DNA from: a virus
DNA length: 33,287 nucleotides
Direction: 5' to 3' (one strand)
IMG/VR virus record: IMGVR_UViG_3300042451_000131
Location: 1-33,287 of that record
Below the pieces are notes generated by a model. It was not told the origin of the DNA. It saw only the letters and a list, made by a program, of their open reading frames with translations, and did not search any database. The translations under genes were made by a program, and so were the position numbers. Position 1 is the first letter of the stretch, and the number at the start of each line of letters is the position of its first letter. Shown piece after piece: positions 2,133 to 31,537 of this stretch.

Positions 2133-2375
2133 TTAGTTAATACTATAAACAATAAAGGATCCAATTGCATAGCCAATTGATGAAGCCAAAGCCATTAATA
2201 TTCTTTCTTTCCAGTTTTTACTTTCAACCATATAACCAACAAATGGCAATCCAAGGAATGGACCAATAAACGCCCAGAATATCATGCTCAAAGATCTATC
2301 AGCAACTGTTGCAATATACATTGTTGATGCTATCTCAATGATCAATGCTGATATAAAAATGATTAGGTATTTCAT
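2133..2375 (-). CDS. Small membrane protein, 80 aa
   Basis: An N-terminal hydrophobic helix (about residues 3-25), a second hydrophobic stretch around 30-50 and a third near 60-79 are separated by a short charged loop (ESKNWKERI). This looks like a two- to three-pass inner-membrane protein. The start overlaps the primase-polymerase stop by 4 bases (ATGA), so it is translated from the same message. Function unknown. It is too far from the lysis genes to call a holin, although replication-linked membrane proteins do occur in phages. Confidence 0.7.
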   Translation of the reverse strand: MKYLIIFISALIIEIASTMYIATVADRSLSMIFWAFIGPFLGLPFVGYMVESKNWKERILMALASSIGYAIGSFIVYSIN

Positions 2376-4603
2376 TTTTTATCTAATTTATTTATCCAAT
2401 TAATAACTGTTCTTCGGCTAACTTGTAATATCTCAGATGCTGTTGTTCTGTTTAGTTCAGGATCTGATTGATACATTGCCATAAATTGGTCAAATTTATT
2501 AGATCCAGTTGAGGCTAACTTTCTAAGATCAGCTTTCTCTTGAGCATCTTTCTTAACAAGTTTACTCATGTTAACAAAGTAATCACTTAACTTCTCAGCT
2601 CTTATCATTGCATCCTTGCAAATTTGAAGAGCATTAACATCATCATATTCTGAGCTCATCAATATGTTCAGCATCATTGCAAATCTTGGAATGTAGCTTT
2701 TTTGTTTTGGGAGCATTGACTTCATGTATTCATTCTCATCATCTGAATTCTGCATGTCTGATATCTTATCATGAATCCGAATCCATTCATCATTTGCATC
2801 ATGTGAGAATCTGGCAACATGTGGTAAAATTTCACCTTTCTCATCAGTTATAAAAAAGTTTTTAGCAAGTGATTCCTTAAGTCTGATTAAAAAATTTTCA
2901 TACCAGTAAATTAATTTATCATCCAAAACATTGGTATTGTATTTATCCACACTCAGCTCTGGATATGATATAAGAATCCTATCAATGAATCCATTCTCTT
3001 TATTGGCTCCAGTTGCAAATTGCTCAAAGACATCTGGTTGAATACCTCCAATCACTGGAATAAAAGGCTTGTCAACGAATGCACTCTTTGATGTTTTACG
3101 ATTCAATGAAATGCTCTGACCATTCCAAGATGATAGCCAGAATTCCAAGTCTGATCCAGCTCTGTATTTATTCATATCCTTAAACCAACCAGCAAGCTCA
3201 TCTTTAAATACTCCAATGCAATTAGGATTGGTCTCATGCAAATCAATCAAAGCCTCAAGAGTAATATCACCAACAATAAACTGCTCTGATTTTGGCTTAA
3301 TAATCTCCTCAGCATATTTCTTTGCATCCTTATCAAGCCTCTCATATTCCACAAACTTAGCATAAGACTTTTGAAATTCCTTTTGCTTTCTTATGTTTAA
3401 CTTTTGAAGAGGAAAGATAATCTGATTCAATGATGGTGTTTTACCAATTCCTGGCTTTCCAACAACTGCAATCCACAATGTTGCTGTTTCTCTCCATCCT
3501 GGTTTAATCTCAACAATGAATGAGTTTCCAATACATACTGATAATGACCAAAGAAATGCACATCCCATATAGTCAATTGACAATCCAAGAGTCTCAGAGC
3601 TCTGGAGGATGTATTGTTGAATCTCTTGACTAAAAATCTCTATTGGAAATTGAACTCTATCAATGTTTATCTTTGGCTCAATTTGTTTTATCTTAATTTT
3701 TTTCTCTAATCTTGCTCCAAATCCATCAGAATAAATTGCTTTTGCTGATGCATTGAAATCACCATTGTGATATCTCCAAGTGTATGCTATGAATGGAGTA
3801 ATCAATTGCTCATGTGGATATATTGATCCTGTTGAAAATAGATACATGCATCCACTATTCTTATAGACATACCCAGAATGTGGTGATGTGCCTCCATTCC
3901 TCTTGATGATATCCTTGTCATGTGTTTTTGAAACAATCTGAAAGTCATCTGATATGATGTCCCAGATGGATGTCCTTTGATTATAATCTTGCCAAGGAGT
4001 CAATGTTGATTCATAAACTTCCTTAACTTCCTCTTTTACTGGCTCATCACCAGTGTAGTTGTAAGTTTTACAGATTGTCCAAAGTATTTCCTTATCCTTA
4101 TCAGATATCTCCTTGACATCAAGATATGTCAACAGATTGATGTTATTGGAATAAACAACACAATATCCACCAACTCCTCTGGATTCAATCACTGCCTCAC
4201 TATGTCCATTTAATTTAGCAATCTTTTGATTTGATTTGACATCCTTTGTCTTGTAAAGGATATGATATCCTTGATTGACTGTTTTATAAATTACAAATTT
4301 AAAGTCAAAGTCGTCAATATTATCTCTAAGCAACTGAAGGAATTCATTCCAGAAATCATTCTGCTCTTTCAAAGTTGCAAATACCTTGAGATCAACATCA
4401 ATACATTCAATCCCATTGAATCCAGTAATCAATCCAACATAGTTAGCCCTTGCTGATTTGTACTTTTCTTCAAATTCATCTTTTGTAAAAGGTGTTTTTT
4501 GACATTGTTTCCAGGATCCTATTGGTATCTTTTTATCATCAGAGACAATCAGAGAATATCCTGAGTCAATAAGTTTTTTAGCATAAGTTAAAGCTATTAG
4601 CAT
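2372..4603 (-). CDS. Primase-polymerase fused to DUF3987-type helicase/ATPase
   Basis: A 743-aa replication protein. The N-terminus resembles archaeo-eukaryotic primase-polymerases: GLITG then ECIDVDLK (66-73, acidic D69 and D71) and GYHILYK (112-118). The middle and C-terminal part look like the DUF3987 P-loop family, with Walker A GKPGIGKT at 382-389, a Walker-B-like VFKDELAGWF at 465-474 and a GGIQPD sensor-like stretch. The last 40 residues form an HTH (RTTASEILQVSRRTVINWI). It likely primes and unwinds at the phage origin immediately upstream. A structured leader and promoter box lie at 4620-4710. Alternatively it could be a primase/helicase without polymerase activity; the domain calls are by eye. 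Confidence 0.82.
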   Translation of the reverse strand: MLIALTYAKKLIDSGYSLIVSDDKKIPIGSWKQCQKTPFTKDEFEEKYKSARANYVGLITGFNGIECIDVDLKVFATLKEQNDFWNEFLQLLRDNIDDFDFKFVIYKTVNQGYHILYKTKDVKSNQKIAKLNGHSEAVIESRGVGGYCVVYSNNINLLTYLDVKEISDKDKEILWTICKTYNYTGDEPVKEEVKEVYESTLTPWQDYNQRTSIWDIISDDFQIVSKTHDKDIIKRNGGTSPHSGYVYKNSGCMYLFSTGSIYPHEQLITPFIAYTWRYHNGDFNASAKAIYSDGFGARLEKKIKIKQIEPKINIDRVQFPIEIFSQEIQQYILQSSETLGLSIDYMGCAFLWSLSVCIGNSFIVEIKPGWRETATLWIAVVGKPGIGKTPSLNQIIFPLQKLNIRKQKEFQKSYAKFVEYERLDKDAKKYAEEIIKPKSEQFIVGDITLEALIDLHETNPNCIGVFKDELAGWFKDMNKYRAGSDLEFWLSSWNGQSISLNRKTSKSAFVDKPFIPVIGGIQPDVFEQFATGANKENGFIDRILISYPELSVDKYNTNVLDDKLIYWYENFLIRLKESLAKNFFITDEKGEILPHVARFSHDANDEWIRIHDKISDMQNSDDENEYMKSMLPKQKSYIPRFAMMLNILMSSEYDDVNALQICKDAMIRAEKLSDYFVNMSKLVKKDAQEKADLRKLASTGSNKFDQFMAMYQSDPELNRTTASEILQVSRRTVINWINKLDKK

Positions 4604-4698
4604 AGTGTTAAAAATAAAATTGCCCCACCAAATCCACAGGATCTCACTACCGTTTCATTGATGAGGCAAAAAATATCTTTGTTAATTTGTGAGATCAT
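4597..4698 (-). CDS. Possible 33-aa leader peptide before the primase-polymerase
   Basis: An ORF starts at the ATG at 4696-4698, four bases after a TATATTTG promoter box, and ends in TAA overlapping the start of the primase-polymerase gene (4603) by 7 bases. The peptide begins MISQINKDIFCLINETVVRS and has a hydrophobic C-terminus. Translation could be leaderless and couple to the main gene. The same bases also form strong RNA stems, so this may instead be an untranslated leader. Confidence 0.3.
   Translation of the reverse strand: MISQINKDIFCLINETVVRSCGFGGAILFLTLC
4620..4696 (-). promoter_or_regulatory. Structured RNA leader of the primase-polymerase gene
   Basis: Three pairings are visible in the minus-strand RNA. 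Stem A is GATCTCAC (4696-4689) with GTGAGATC (4647-4640), 8 bp. Stem B is TTGCCTCATC (4669-4660) with GGTGGGGCAA (4629-4620), 10 bp with two G-U pairs, ending 16 bases before the start codon. Stem C is ATCC/GGAT (4642-4639 with 4635-4632), which competes with stem A. A plus B would form a pseudoknot; B plus C forms a nested hairpin. This is the shape of a switchable or autoregulatory leader. I do not recognise it as a known riboswitch class. Confidence 0.45.
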
Positions 4699-4702
4699 AC
4701 TG

Positions 4703-4710
4703 CAAATATA
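4703..4710 (-). promoter_or_regulatory. Bacteroidota -7 promoter box (TATATTTG) for the replication genes
   Basis: TATATTTG on the minus strand matches the Bacteroidota -7 consensus TAnnTTTG. It lies four bases before the ATG of the possible leader peptide. No exact TTTG is seen about 20 bases upstream, so the -33 element is weak or absent. Transcription would start near 4697-4699. Confidence 0.4.
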
Positions 4711-4755
4711 AATAATTTTCTTTGATTGATACATTTTTTAACTTTTATTGATTAC

Positions 4756-4769
4756 TGTGAAATTTCACA
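4756..4769. repeat. 14-bp perfect palindrome TGTGAAATTTCACA
   Basis: The palindrome is built from two TGTGAAA half-sites and overlaps the first iteron. Imperfect relatives occur at 4844-4858 (TGTGAAAATTGCACA) and 4910-4927 (TGTGAATGCAATTTCACA). It could bind a dimeric regulator or the phage initiator. Confidence 0.65.
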
Positions 4770-4810
4770 CCTACTTTCACACCATTTTTCACACCTAATT
4801 TCACACCATT
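4763..4810. repeat. Four tandem 12-bp iterons (TTTCACACCnnn), candidate replication origin
   Basis: TTTCACACC starts at 4763, 4775, 4787 and 4799, exactly 12 bp apart, with variable 3-base spacers (TAC, ATT, TAA, ATT). A fifth TTCACACC occurs at 4936-4943, facing an inverted GGTGTGAA at 4908-4915. The array lies in the 333-bp non-coding gap 4604-4936 between a DnaA-domain-like gene and the primase-polymerase gene, with A/T-rich runs beside it (4862-4900). Tandem iterons of this kind are typical initiator-binding sites, so this is the best origin candidate. An operator array is the main alternative. Confidence 0.65.
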
Positions 4811-4936
4811 TTTCTAAGTACAGTCGGCATTACAGAGGCTTACTGTGAAAATTGCACACTTGAAAAAAAAAAAGTTTTTAAATTTAGTTTTATTTTTCAT
4901 TTTATCTGGTGTGAATGCAATTTCACAGTTCACAGT

Positions 4937-5326
4937 TCACACCTTTTCATATCCTCCAGCCATTATCTTATCCTTAATCATCCTCAATTGAGTAGTATTA
5001 TGGCAATTCATCACATCATCATAGATTGTATCTTTCTGCACCTCAATAATTGGTCTGAAGATCAGATCATAATGTTTAACATTTCGCATGTATATTTTAT
5101 CACGTCCATAGAATGCATCATGAACTTTCAGAGCATTGATAACTGTTGCATGGTTTCTGTTGAATAATCTTCCAATCTTTGACAGATGCCAACCTTCATC
5201 TCTGAGAATAGCATAAAGATAAGATCGCTTATAAATCATATCTCGATATCTATCCTTGCTGTCCAGTCTATCTATCTGAATCAGTTCTTTAATTCTCTCC
5301 TCCATGGTATAATTGTCTGGACTCAT
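4937..5326 (-). CDS. DnaA domain IV-like DNA-binding protein (putative initiator)
   Basis: The 129-aa protein contains HLSKIGRLFNRNHATVINAL (residues 47-66). This closely follows the DnaA domain IV signature, in which an HTH (IG..F..R.H.TV) contacts DnaA boxes. No AAA+ ATPase domain is present, so it is only the DNA-binding part with a short C-terminal extension. It lies right next to the iteron region and directly upstream of the primase-polymerase, suggesting origin recognition or autoregulation. The start is supported by one of the few clear Shine-Dalgarno sequences here, AAAGGAG ending about 6 bases before the ATG. The last codons overlap the fifth TTCACACC box. Confidence 0.7.
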   Translation of the reverse strand: MSPDNYTMEERIKELIQIDRLDSKDRYRDMIYKRSYLYAILRDEGWHLSKIGRLFNRNHATVINALKVHDAFYGRDKIYMRNVKHYDLIFRPIIEVQKDTIYDDVMNCHNTTQLRMIKDKIMAGGYEKV

Positions 5327-16502: not shown

Positions 16503-16510
16503 TATATTTG
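16503..16510 (+). promoter_or_regulatory. Promoter box TATATTTG for the inverted gene
   Basis: TATATTTG on the plus strand matches the Bacteroidota -7 box and lies six bases before the ATG at 16517, in a 24-base divergent spacer. No exact TTTG at -33 is seen. It would give a near-leaderless mRNA. Confidence 0.4.
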
Positions 16511-16516
16511 TTCGAA

Positions 16517-17164
16517 ATGATTTTTGTTTATCCATACCACAGCAGAGCTGAGTCTGACTTTGAAATCAAGCAATCAATTGCAATTATCCTCAAAGTTTAT
16601 CCTGATGCAGAGATCTGGACAGTTGGCAAAGCTGTGTCTGGCATCAACAACATACCATGCACTCAACACAACAACATCAGAGGCTGTGATGTGACCAATA
16701 GAATTCTGACCTTTGCTAAGAAAATTGGTGGAGAGTTTATCTATATGAACAAAGATTTCTTTATCACTGAGTCATGGCAACCACATGTTGCTATCAATAT
16801 GAAGAGCCTCATTGTCAATGATGACCATCCTCCACATACAAAGGTAGCTCAGTCAAACACATTGGAATTCCTTAAGCATAACAGCTTCACCGCTTATAAT
16901 TATGAGACACATACTCCATGTGTCATGGATAGCAAAAAGCTGATTGATCTATTTGACAATATCAACTGGCAGAATGACAATCATTTTATCAAGTCAATCT
17001 ATTGTAATGTGTATCAAGTCCCATCAAAGGAAGGATTCAATTGTAAGGTATCAACTCCATCCATTGCCAAGGCTCAAGAATTCATTGCACTCCAGGGATG
17101 TTTCTCAACTGGAGATCAGTTCTGGAATAAGCCTTGTGTTGAATGGATTAAAAGCTTGACTTAG
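16517..17164 (+). CDS. Glycosyltransferase/Stealth-like protein, lone plus-strand gene
   Basis: The 215-aa product starts at ATG 16517 (MIFVYPYHSRAESDFEIKQS) after a TATATTTG box. An N-terminal Rossmann-like beginning (DAEIWTVGKA) and FIYMNKDFFIT (about 74-84) resemble the D-x-D region of sugar-transferring Stealth-type or GT-A enzymes. This is the only gene on the plus strand: its 3' end overlaps the tape-measure stop by 17 bases and its 5' end faces the protease gene 24 bases away. That pattern is typical of a later-acquired moron gene. It may act on host surface glycans together with the sugar cassette at 28839-31537. The family call is tentative. Confidence 0.6.
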   Translation: MIFVYPYHSRAESDFEIKQSIAIILKVYPDAEIWTVGKAVSGINNIPCTQHNNIRGCDVTNRILTFAKKIGGEFIYMNKDFFITESWQPHVAINMKSLIVNDDHPPHTKVAQSNTLEFLKHNSFTAYNYETHTPCVMDSKKLIDLFDNINWQNDNHFIKSIYCNVYQVPSKEGFNCKVSTPSIAKAQEFIALQGCFSTGDQFWNKPCVEWIKSLT

Positions 17165-28838: not shown

Positions 28839-29906
28839 TTATTTACAGTACTTAACATAAAACGTATATGGCACCACTTTAAGCTTAGCCAGTATCCAGA
28901 TCAGATGCTTGTATCTTTTAAAGTCATATTTATCAAAGAATGATCTATCTCTTTTGTGTAGGTTAACCAATCTTAGCATTCTCTCAGCTGATGCTCCGAG
29001 CTTTGTGAAATCAAACTCTGACTTTTGTTTGAATTGTTCCTTTGCATCTTCTTTGCTAAGCTTGCCAGATCTGACTTGAGCAGCTAAGTAAACAATCCTC
29101 TTGTCAATACCAAACTTCTCTGGCAAAAGGAATGATCCCACGAATTCAGTGTAAACATTCTCACAATGCTTGCCACCGTAATCTTGCCAGTTTATGAATC
29201 TCTTCATCTCAGCCTCCATTGAGTCTCTGTCAAATCCATAGTGAAATGGTCTAACATTTTTGATGCCTAACAAGGCATAGAATAGCTGATCCTTGAATGT
29301 GAATAGAGGATAGTTGTGGAGCTTGAGTCCAGTGTATTTATTATAAACTGATTCAATGTATTTGGCATCCATATAAGTCCATCCTTTTGGAGTTGATCCT
29401 TCGGTTCTGAAATCATGCCCATTGAGGATGTATTTGATGTTGTATTTAAATGCAGTATCATACATGAGCTTGGTCATTGCAATATCATTTGGGATATCAG
29501 CATCTGGAATACCAGCCCAAAGGAAAGCATCATTGAGTCTATCGTACTCAGCTTTGTTCACATTGTATGTAATGCAATCAACTCCGAGCTTCTCAACCAG
29601 TGTTCTCATGTTATGTATTGCCTCTGGAGCATTCCAGTTGTTGTCAAAGTGAATGACAAGCGGCTTGAGATTCCAATATCTGACTGCTGTGAATAGCAAT
29701 GTTGAGGAGTCAATGCCTCCAGAGATACCCATGATGCAATCATATCTTTTACTCTCGCCAGCCTTCTTGATCTTGGCAATGATATGCTTCAGTTCATGTG
29801 GATTGGCTTGAAGCTCCAGTTCATCATGGAGATCACAATATTCGCATTGTTCTGGACCTATATGAGCTATGGTCTCATCAAATAAACAGCGTGGACATTC
29901 TTTCAT
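28839..29906 (-). CDS. N-acetyl-sugar amidotransferase (PseA/WbpG-like PP-loop enzyme)
   Basis: The protein starts at ATG 29906 (MKECPRCLFDETIAHIGPEQ), 355 aa. A CPRC...CEYC zinc site (Cys 4, 7, 21, 24) leads into the PP-loop ATPase signature SGGIDSS (62-68), then FDNNWNAPEAIHN and the NGHDFRTEGSTPKGW segment. This is the layout of N-acetyl-sugar amidotransferases that convert an acetamido to an acetamidino group on surface sugars. Such enzymes need ammonia from a HisH-type partner, which is not present in this phage and would have to be supplied by the host. It lies with two glycosyltransferases and ends the cassette before TerS. Confidence 0.8.
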   Translation of the reverse strand: MKECPRCLFDETIAHIGPEQCEYCDLHDELELQANPHELKHIIAKIKKAGESKRYDCIMGISGGIDSSTLLFTAVRYWNLKPLVIHFDNNWNAPEAIHNMRTLVEKLGVDCITYNVNKAEYDRLNDAFLWAGIPDADIPNDIAMTKLMYDTAFKYNIKYILNGHDFRTEGSTPKGWTYMDAKYIESVYNKYTGLKLHNYPLFTFKDQLFYALLGIKNVRPFHYGFDRDSMEAEMKRFINWQDYGGKHCENVYTEFVGSFLLPEKFGIDKRIVYLAAQVRSGKLSKEDAKEQFKQKSEFDFTKLGASAERMLRLVNLHKRDRSFFDKYDFKRYKHLIWILAKLKVVPYTFYVKYCK

Positions 29907-30618
29907 AGTTAACAAAGTTATGATAAATTTTACTAATATACACATTATCCACATGTCGAGTGGAATACTCTCTCATGATTGATTGACAGATATCATCCAC
30001 TGATTCCCAAGGGATTGATCCTGGAAGATCACCATTGTAAATGGAACGCCTTCCCATGAGTCCCATCTCAATGTTTGTGTTTGGACAGCCATCATGCTGA
30101 GTAAGTCTGAGATTTAGGAAGCATTGAGAGTAAACATCTTTGAGTTCCTCCTTGGTGAAGGTATCATGACCAGCTCTTATGATAGGGATTTTGATTCTTT
30201 CTTTGATTTCGTTGATAAGTGACTCACCATAATACTCTGGAGAGTTACCTGAATACCAAAATATCTTCTCTCCATTTGGTACAAGCTCCCAATGATGAGG
30301 GACAACAGCATTGAATGGATAGTATATTGCATCCACTCCTTTTGATTCTAATGTGTCCATGACTTGATGACTAACAGCTATGTTCACAAACTTGTTAACC
30401 ATATCAACCCAATCCTCTCTGAGATCTTTGGCATCTGAGCCAAACCAAACAATGGTAGCATCTCCAATGTGTCCAGATAGGAGATTCAAATCTTCATCCC
30501 TATACATTCCCATGAAGATCGTTGGCAATATTGGAGAGATGTATTCCATGAGTTGATACTTCTCAATGAGACCTTGATCGAGTCCAGTAAGGGATTCTGA
30601 TATATGGGATTGGTTCAT
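29878..30618 (-). CDS. GT-B-like glycosyltransferase
   Basis: The start at ATG 30618 (MNQSHISESLTGLDQGLIEK) overlaps the previous stop as ATGA, giving 246 aa. A Rossmann-type N-terminal region (ATIVWFGSDAKDL) and a C-terminal block LRLTQHDGCPNTNIEMGLMG resemble the donor-binding domain of GT4/GT1 enzymes. It is shorter than a complete GT-B enzyme (350-400 aa), so the acceptor domain may be trimmed. It probably transfers a sugar in the same pathway as its neighbours. The acceptor (host glycan, virion protein or DNA) is unknown. Confidence 0.65.
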   Translation of the reverse strand: MNQSHISESLTGLDQGLIEKYQLMEYISPILPTIFMGMYRDEDLNLLSGHIGDATIVWFGSDAKDLREDWVDMVNKFVNIAVSHQVMDTLESKGVDAIYYPFNAVVPHHWELVPNGEKIFWYSGNSPEYYGESLINEIKERIKIPIIRAGHDTFTKEELKDVYSQCFLNLRLTQHDGCPNTNIEMGLMGRRSIYNGDLPGSIPWESVDDICQSIMREYSTRHVDNVYISKIYHNFVNYERMSTLFI

Positions 30619-30842
30619 AGTTTCTCTATCTCTTGTCTGACATCTAACAGCCATTGATGAGCAATACTACCCTCGTTAATATATAAGCCGTTTCTAATAT
30701 CAATCATCTCATCAACTGCAATCACTGCGCATTTTTTAGCTATCACAGTACATAGTATCTCATCACCGCATTCAGTATCTTCATTCATTAAAATGATTCG
30801 ATAGCTATCAACCAATTCTCTTGCTTTCTCTTCTGCACTCAT
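30615..30842 (-). CDS. Hypothetical protein, 75 aa, in the sugar cassette
   Basis: An acidic helical protein (MSAEEKARELVDSYRIILMN) with AKKCAVIAVDEMIDIRNGLY and a C-terminal WLLDVRQEIEKL. The KKCA-I-VDEMI pattern is one I associate with short hypothetical proteins in Bacteroidota phages. It is coupled by ATGA on both sides, lying between the two glycosyltransferases. No sugar-related function can be assigned. Confidence 0.6.
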   Translation of the reverse strand: MSAEEKARELVDSYRIILMNEDTECGDEILCTVIAKKCAVIAVDEMIDIRNGLYINEGSIAHQWLLDVRQEIEKL

Positions 30843-31537
30843 AATAAAGTTTTTAATTCACTAAATCCATTCTCAATCAGACTCACATCACATCTCTCTG
30901 ACTTTAAAGATCCAGTCCAATGATCTGTGAACTTATGCTTGTTGCTCCATTTGTTTGTTGAGATGGATAGTAATTGAACTGAGTTGTCACATTCCAGGAT
31001 GCCGATCTCTTGATTTGATTTCATAGCCTTCAGCCACATTGACCAATCAAGACCAGAGTTGAGTTGAGCATTGAATGGAGTCCAGTTGATTGCCTCAAGG
31101 AATTCTCTATTAAGAAAGCGACCAATCCCTATTGGCTCATTTTGTCTCATTTGATCCTTGTATCCTTTCCAATGCACCAGTCTAATCTCATCAGATACAT
31201 CAGCGAAATGACAGCCAAGTTGACCAATCATCCCAAAGTCCTTGCTGTGCTCTTTGCATCTTTGAATGTATCCATCACTGCACCAGTCAGATGATCCCAT
31301 GAAGATGACAGCATCTGCATTGTAATTCTTTGAGGCCTGGAATCCTTTATTCCATTTGTTACCAAGGGGATCATTGTCAATGGAGATGAATTCAACATTC
31401 ATTTGTTGAGCAATATCCATTGCCTCTCTCTCATGACCTAAAACAATCGGAGTTACTCCTTGCCTCTTAAGTCTTGAGATAGTTAGTCTGACAAGAGGAA
31501 ATCTGCCAAATACTGGTATTGGAGCTGTGACTATCAT
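30839..31537 (-). CDS. GT-A-like (family 2-type) glycosyltransferase
   Basis: The 232-aa protein begins MIVTAPIPVFGRFPLVRLTI and has ADAVIFMGSSDWCSDGYIQR (residues about 74-94), where SSDW occupies the D-x-D metal/sugar-binding position of GT-A enzymes, and a later FNAQLNSGLDWSMWLKAMK segment. Similar SSDW proteins are known to me from Bacteroidota phages. Its ATG overlaps the previous stop by 4 bases. It starts the sugar-modifying part of the operon. The donor and acceptor are unknown. Confidence 0.7.
   Translation of the reverse strand: MIVTAPIPVFGRFPLVRLTISRLKRQGVTPIVLGHEREAMDIAQQMNVEFISIDNDPLGNKWNKGFQASKNYNADAVIFMGSSDWCSDGYIQRCKEHSKDFGMIGQLGCHFADVSDEIRLVHWKGYKDQMRQNEPIGIGRFLNREFLEAINWTPFNAQLNSGLDWSMWLKAMKSNQEIGILECDNSVQLLSISTNKWSNKHKFTDHWTGSLKSERCDVSLIENGFSELKTLL

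Follow-up and report, generated by a model that had tools for sequence, protein, structure and literature searches.

The repeats at ~4754-4943 of the window are probably iterons, and the replication origin of which they are part would belong to a 743-amino-acid (aa) primase-helicase that reads them with its C-terminal helix-turn-helix (HTH); they would also form part of a cassette that is swapped between phages. Comparison of ~100 related viral loci shows cosegregation of repeat type and primase type, uncoupling of the repeats from the DnaA-like protein encoded beside them, and tracking of the repeat sequence by the recognition helix of the primase. The window, that is, the whole stretch of DNA analyzed, comprises all 33,287 bp of its IMG/VR record. 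Nearly all of its genes lie on the minus strand, where an HNH endonuclease gene is followed by the genes for an 87-aa protein and the 129-aa DnaA-like protein; after ~333 bp of intergenic DNA come the gene for the 743-aa primase and a block of recombination genes (ERF annealing protein, exonuclease). A scan of genomes with the primase led to four Bacteroidota MAG contigs, and a scan with the DnaA-like protein gave no relatives; the hosts appear to be Bacteroidota. The features of the region are as follows.

2372-4603, minus strand: 743-aa predicted replication initiator, with an AEP primase-polymerase N-terminus, a DUF3987 P-loop ATPase, and a C-terminal HTH
2375-2437, minus strand: end of the HTH (residues ~723-743) with recognition helix SRRTVINWINKLDKK, the proposed iteron reader, which covaries with the repeats
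4604-4702, minus strand: 99-nucleotide (nt) 5' leader with interleaved stems, layout S1-S2-S1'-S2'
4689-4696/4640-4647, minus strand: leader stem S1, GATCTCAC/GTGAGATC
4662-4669/4620-4627, minus strand: leader stem S2, TTGCCTCA/TGGGGCAA
4703-4710, minus strand: TATATTTG, match to the Bacteroidota -7 box, 99 nt before the primase start
4754-4771, no strand assigned: palindrome ACTGTGAAATTTCACACC on the promoter side of the array, retained in class A relatives
4763-4807, minus strand: core iteron array of four GGTGTGAAA units, kept in class A relatives
4840-4861, no strand assigned: second inverted-repeat site TTACTGTGAAAATTGCACACTT, at a position conserved in relatives
4860-4909, no strand assigned: stretch of 86% A+T flanked by the outer sites, ranking within the 0.35% of 50-mers in the window that are richest in A+T
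4908-4943, no strand assigned: outer site cluster GGTGTGAATGCAATTTCACAGTTCACAGTTCACACC, whose last repeat shares bases with the 129-aa stop codon
4937-5326, minus strand: 129-aa stand-alone DnaA domain IV protein, neighbor of the candidate origin, uncoupled from the iterons

An earlier note on this DNA had described four units spaced exactly 12 bp apart, together with a palindrome, two relatives of it, and an inverted pair, all between the 129-aa gene and the primase gene. Copies of TTTCACACC, the plus-strand form of GGTGTGAAA, start at 4763, 4775, 4787, and 4799, confirming the units and their period. Also confirmed were the palindrome TGTGAAATTTCACA at 4756-4769, the two sites related to it at ~4842-4859 and ~4908-4929, and the inverted pair formed by GGTGTGAA and TTCACACC. 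The repeats begin inside the end of the 129-aa gene, where GGTGTGAA (4936-4943) overlaps the stop codon.

The array extends over ~190 bp 5' of the primase gene, comprises several inverted sites and the AT-rich stretch, and ends ~45 bp before a Bacteroidota-like promoter box, without overlapping the promoter. In the 33-kb window, TTCACACC occurs six times, always within 4764-4943 (expected, 1.04 copies; 0 of 100 shuffles reached six), and when the intergenic region was resampled 2,000 times with a first-order Markov model, no 9-mer exceeded three copies. When one mismatch was allowed, the count over the whole window was 11 versus 9.0 expected, which is not unusual; the repeat signal is therefore one of local clustering, not of abundance. 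By nearest-neighbor stability, the AT-rich stretch falls only within the top 3-4%; we infer that it is a possible unwinding region. The combination of direct repeats, inverted sites, and an AT-rich stretch fits the anatomy of an iteron origin. A check of GC skew revealed no change at the array. Skew is negative almost throughout the window, and with nearly all genes on one strand, such one-sided skew neither supports nor refutes an origin.

The 743-aa protein matches PF13148 (E = 6.5e-55), and the fold of its primase-polymerase N-terminus matches that of pRN1 ORF904 (1rni, E = 1.6e-6). Invariant in its relatives are D69 and D71 of the DVD motif (69-71), H114, and the Walker A residues G382, G385, G387, K388, and T389. 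An AlphaFold model of modest quality (mean pLDDT 70, ~75 in the HTH) places the HTH helices at residues 703-713, 719-726, and 730-742, the last being the recognition helix.

Relatives of the 129-aa protein were collected from IMG/VR. Downstream of the DnaA-like gene, 31 related loci carry three unrelated repeat types, which are listed here with the accompanying primases.

Type A, repeats GGTGTGAAA/ACTGTGAA: primase-polymerase, DUF3987, and HTH
Type B, repeats AAACTTTAC (ACTTTAC): primase-polymerase and another helicase
Type C, repeats TGTCATG/CGTGACAA: BT4734_N, PriCT_1, and a DUF5906-like domain

Repeat type corresponded to primase type at all 31 loci, at 30 of them automatically and at L017 via its full 626-bp intergenic region. 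Automatic labeling had assigned L017 to type A in error, owing to a gene inserted behind the repeats; when the whole intergenic region is counted, the locus is type B. This small gene (MLVYRYDGVTYIDKR...) separates the type B repeats from the primase and is preceded by a leader of another sequence. In addition, a DNA-only scan for two repeat units GGTGTGAAANNNGGTGTGAAA returned 42 contigs, 31 of which encode a relative of the type A primase (46-100% identity) with the array just upstream.

Loci L029 and L030 differ in repeat type. Their DNA is 96.6% identical up to the DnaA-like stop codon, shows no identity over the repeats, is 89% identical over the leader, has little identity over the primase, and reaches 92% beyond it. 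Type B and type C primases have only the helicase core in common (33-39% identity), and both of their ends differ. Types B and C are each seen repeatedly, in contigs from many different samples, which makes assembly chimeras an unlikely cause of such swaps. As judged from these sequence comparisons, the data indicate that repeats and initiator gene are exchanged between phages as a cassette. The unit that moves among phages of the group would comprise the iterons and the promoter as well as the leader and the initiator gene; it would sit after the end of the DnaA-like gene and before the genes that follow the primase.

The relation between repeats and HTH was analyzed within the primase family. 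We collected 84 further loci of primase relatives and examined 60; the comparison set consisted of 29 nonredundant primase relatives with clear repeats, drawn from the new and the earlier loci. Repeat similarity was controlled for protein identity up to residue 690, and 14-residue windows were used. Residues 730-743 tracked the repeats best among all such windows of the primase (partial r = 0.535; permutation test, p = 0.0005; largest value in 2,000 permutations, 0.372). The next best window starts at residue 151 (partial r = 0.457), and the N-terminal part may therefore contribute as well.

GTGTG[AC]A repeats are accompanied by R731, I, Q, or L at 734, and N735 in 12 of 12 cases, and all three residues are found in 0 of the 17 others, a rule that was derived from the same data it describes. 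The R731 primases of L128 and L137 have other repeats, and both differ at 734/735. The two loci with glutamine at 734, L119 and L167, represent separate lineages and are also the two whose repeats are rich in GTGTGCA. Either Q or T at 731 pairs with GTGTAAA (L117, L158, L159, L168, and L169), and SR[IM]TIxR (I/M731, arginine at 735) pairs with GTGTAAC in two separate lineages (L094/L095 and L130). On a tree built without the HTH, repeat type changes four times. Independent pairs on this tree agree in four cases and disagree in none, and two do not differ; four informative pairs are too few for a sign test to reach significance (p = 0.125). Based on this covariation, we propose that the C-terminal HTH of the primase is specific for the iterons.

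We infer physical binding, helicase action, and a start of replication at the array. According to this model, the 743-aa protein would bind the iterons with its C-terminal HTH, then assemble an ATPase ring and open the adjacent AT-rich DNA, and would prime synthesis after opening. An initiator helicase that reads its own iterons is an established scheme, which is extended here. The P4 alpha protein combines primase, helicase, and a C-terminal winged-helix domain in one polypeptide, which binds origin repeats, unwinds, and primes (PMC4234260, with reference to Ziegelin and Lanka 1995 and to Yeo et al. 2002). The same combination of primase, helicase, and C-terminal DNA-binding domain in a single protein is predicted here, but with an AEP primase and a DUF3987 ATPase in contrast to the Toprim primase of P4 alpha, and with binding being predicted. 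In SaPI Rep and SCCmec Cch2, the C-terminal domain of the initiator helicase reads short iterons beside its own gene (PMC7581432). Iteron binding in the P4, SaPI, and SCCmec systems leads to unwinding and then to priming, either by the initiator itself or by a primase that acts after it (PMC4234260, PMC7581432). Those iterons are located downstream of the gene, whereas the array described here is upstream, and the SCCmec primase is a separate protein, whereas primase and ATPase are fused here. Shared with the P4-alpha/SaPI-Rep type are the primase/ATPase domains and the iteron array beside the initiator gene.

Fusion of an AEP primase-polymerase, a helicase, and a C-terminal winged helix is also known from pRN1 ORF904 (PMC4234260), which has the same protein architecture and provides the 1rni fold match. 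The origin of pRN1, in contrast, lacks iterons and consists of a large stem-loop that lies downstream of the gene, and the helicase is of the SF3 type. In domain makeup, the 743-aa protein resembles the AEP-DUF3987 fusions PrimPol-PV1 and PrimQH/All3500 of mobile elements, in which DUF3987 is a predicted replication helicase; the passages of PMC5862659 on these fusions describe no origin or DNA specificity for them. On comparative grounds, the following would be new: an assignment of DNA specificity to AEP-DUF3987 proteins of Bacteroidota phages, and with it to DUF3987-type primase-helicases, whose role was previously predicted; a testable recognition-helix code (R731 for GTGTG[AC]A, Q/T731 for GTGTAAA, and I/M731 with arginine at 735 for GTGTAAC, the last from three loci); and natural swaps, in which origin-plus-initiator cassettes would be exchanged intact between Bacteroidota phages.

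The repeats could also be operators instead of an origin, with the primase-helicase or its HTH regulating its own promoter TATATTTG. This explanation accounts for the position of the array, which is followed immediately by the one obvious primase promoter and by a structured leader, and it predicts the same HTH covariation. We consider it unlikely, because an array of this length that does not overlap the promoter is more than a simple operator requires, and because characterized proteins of the same architecture bind origin iterons (PMC4234260, PMC7581432). The two roles may coexist: as iterons of the primase-helicase located beside its own promoter, the repeats could serve autoregulation.

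To the earlier note, array and 129-aa protein together looked like a stand-alone initiator plus origin. The array remains a good origin candidate, while the 129-aa protein is very improbable as the initiator that binds the TTTCACACC repeats. The proposed fold, DnaA domain IV without an ATPase domain, was borne out. In an AlphaFold model built from 32 relatives (mean pLDDT 85), the 129-aa protein has a DnaA domain IV fold: the closest solved structures are DnaA domain IV 1j1v and 3pvp (Z = 10.7, 86-88 residues aligned), and ParB/KorB is the next structural family (Z = 7.1). The predicted model was needed for this fold call because a sequence search of solved structures gave chance matches only. 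PF08299 (Bac_DnaA_C) was matched with E = 3.2e-7 and 30.7 bits versus a gathering cutoff of 31.5, and the scores of relatives range from 29.2 to 31.3 bits. It is the only convincing Pfam match across the 129 aa; an AAA+ ATPase domain is absent. The protein shares its fold with DnaA domain IV but differs in having neither the AAA+ domain nor a link to the repeats.

DNA that resembles the DnaA box would be the expected target of domain IV. In the window, the DnaA box TTATNCACA is present only at 2943 and 29945 and not in the array; DnaA boxes were rejected as the target of the 129-aa protein, since TTATCCACA occurs only twice in the window, unclustered. Fold and adjacency are in favor of the 129-aa protein as the reader, as is the TTCACA core of class A repeats, which resembles the 3' half of the DnaA box (TNCACA). 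However, B and C repeats lack TNCACA, and an identical recognition region (LREEGWHLSKIGRLFNRNHATVINAL) is found in L019, L029, and L030 beside type A (GGTGTGAAA), type B (ACTTTAC), and type C (TGTCATG) repeats, respectively. The recognition region of the window protein is the same as in L011, a type C locus. The tree of the DnaA-like protein needs nine repeat-type changes, the minimum being two (with L017 counted under its wrong label A).

The DnaA-like protein is common beside these cassettes, yet the array is also conserved where no such protein was detected. A DnaA-like profile search of L051, L056, L079, and L090 (8.8-12 kb) found nothing at E values up to 10, and these four records keep the same repeats and the same primase family. 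L063, L066, and L081 have the same repeats next to a diverged DnaA-like protein (23-30% identity). The repeats switch with the primase, and their sequence tracks its C-terminal recognition helix instead. For annotation, the lesson is that a DnaA-like protein beside an iteron array need not read that array. A reader encoded by the host or by an unlinked phage gene, for which the apparent Bacteroidota hosts could be adduced, is hardly credible, as it explains neither the exact coincidence of repeat-type switches with those of the primase gene nor the tracking of the repeats by the recognition helix.

Several further observations concern the DnaA-like family. Its C-terminal motif DxxNCHNTTxLxxIKxxIxxGxY (residues 100-127) is conserved outside the DNA-binding domain, and the L014 gene has a stop codon shortly before the usual protein end (AGGY*KV). 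A literature search turned up no relevant paper on phage-encoded stand-alone forms of DnaA domain IV. In Pelagibacter phages, some short proteins carry a DnaA-like annotation (HTVC024P gp26). A spacer block, GCTCTGTAACCCTTATAAACACTGA, is conserved upstream of the primase in L119, L138, L079, L090, and L105, whatever the repeat sequence. It was rejected as the site of the DnaA-like protein, since it occurs with and without this protein and is degenerate in the window.

The consensus of the Bacteroidota -7 box is TAnnTTTG, and the promoter box is located at a similar distance in many relatives. Sequence comparison suggests that the leader between this box and the primase gene is pseudoknot-like. 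In 11 close relatives, four of the eight S1 pairs are changed on both sides with 100% pairing, while slid controls of the whole leader structure gave 30-66% paired cells. In a second set of relatives, three of six S1 pairs are compensatory. S2 varies on one side only, so its assignment is based on conservation and recurrence. The layout recurs with unrelated stem sequences in L117, L056, L079, L051, L017, L130, and some type B/C leaders. A 33-codon open reading frame (ORF) overlaps the window leader; the stem changes alter its peptide, and pairing is kept. Rfam gave no match for the window at the gathering threshold or for five type B/C loci at E values up to 0.1.

One leader (GGGGTTTGCGGTTAGCTGCCCAGTAAAAGG...) is common to type B and type C cassettes (L029:4645-4724, L030:4569-4650, and other loci) despite their differing repeats and primase ends, and a second version, GTCGGAGGCATCCACG, alternates with it. 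We tentatively suggest, with some doubt, that a pseudoknotted leader RNA in the swapped cassette precedes all three initiator types, controls the amount of initiator, and has moved between unrelated initiator genes. If true, it would be a new RNA class setting the timing of phage replication.

Elsewhere in the window, a 218-aa ORF without a Pfam match (16508-17164, plus strand) lies on the opposite strand in a gap among the minus-strand genes. The region 28839-31537 (minus strand) encodes a PP-loop ATPase-like protein with weak NAD_synthase/PAPS_reduct matches, followed by two proteins without a Pfam match, which may be products of surface-sugar genes.
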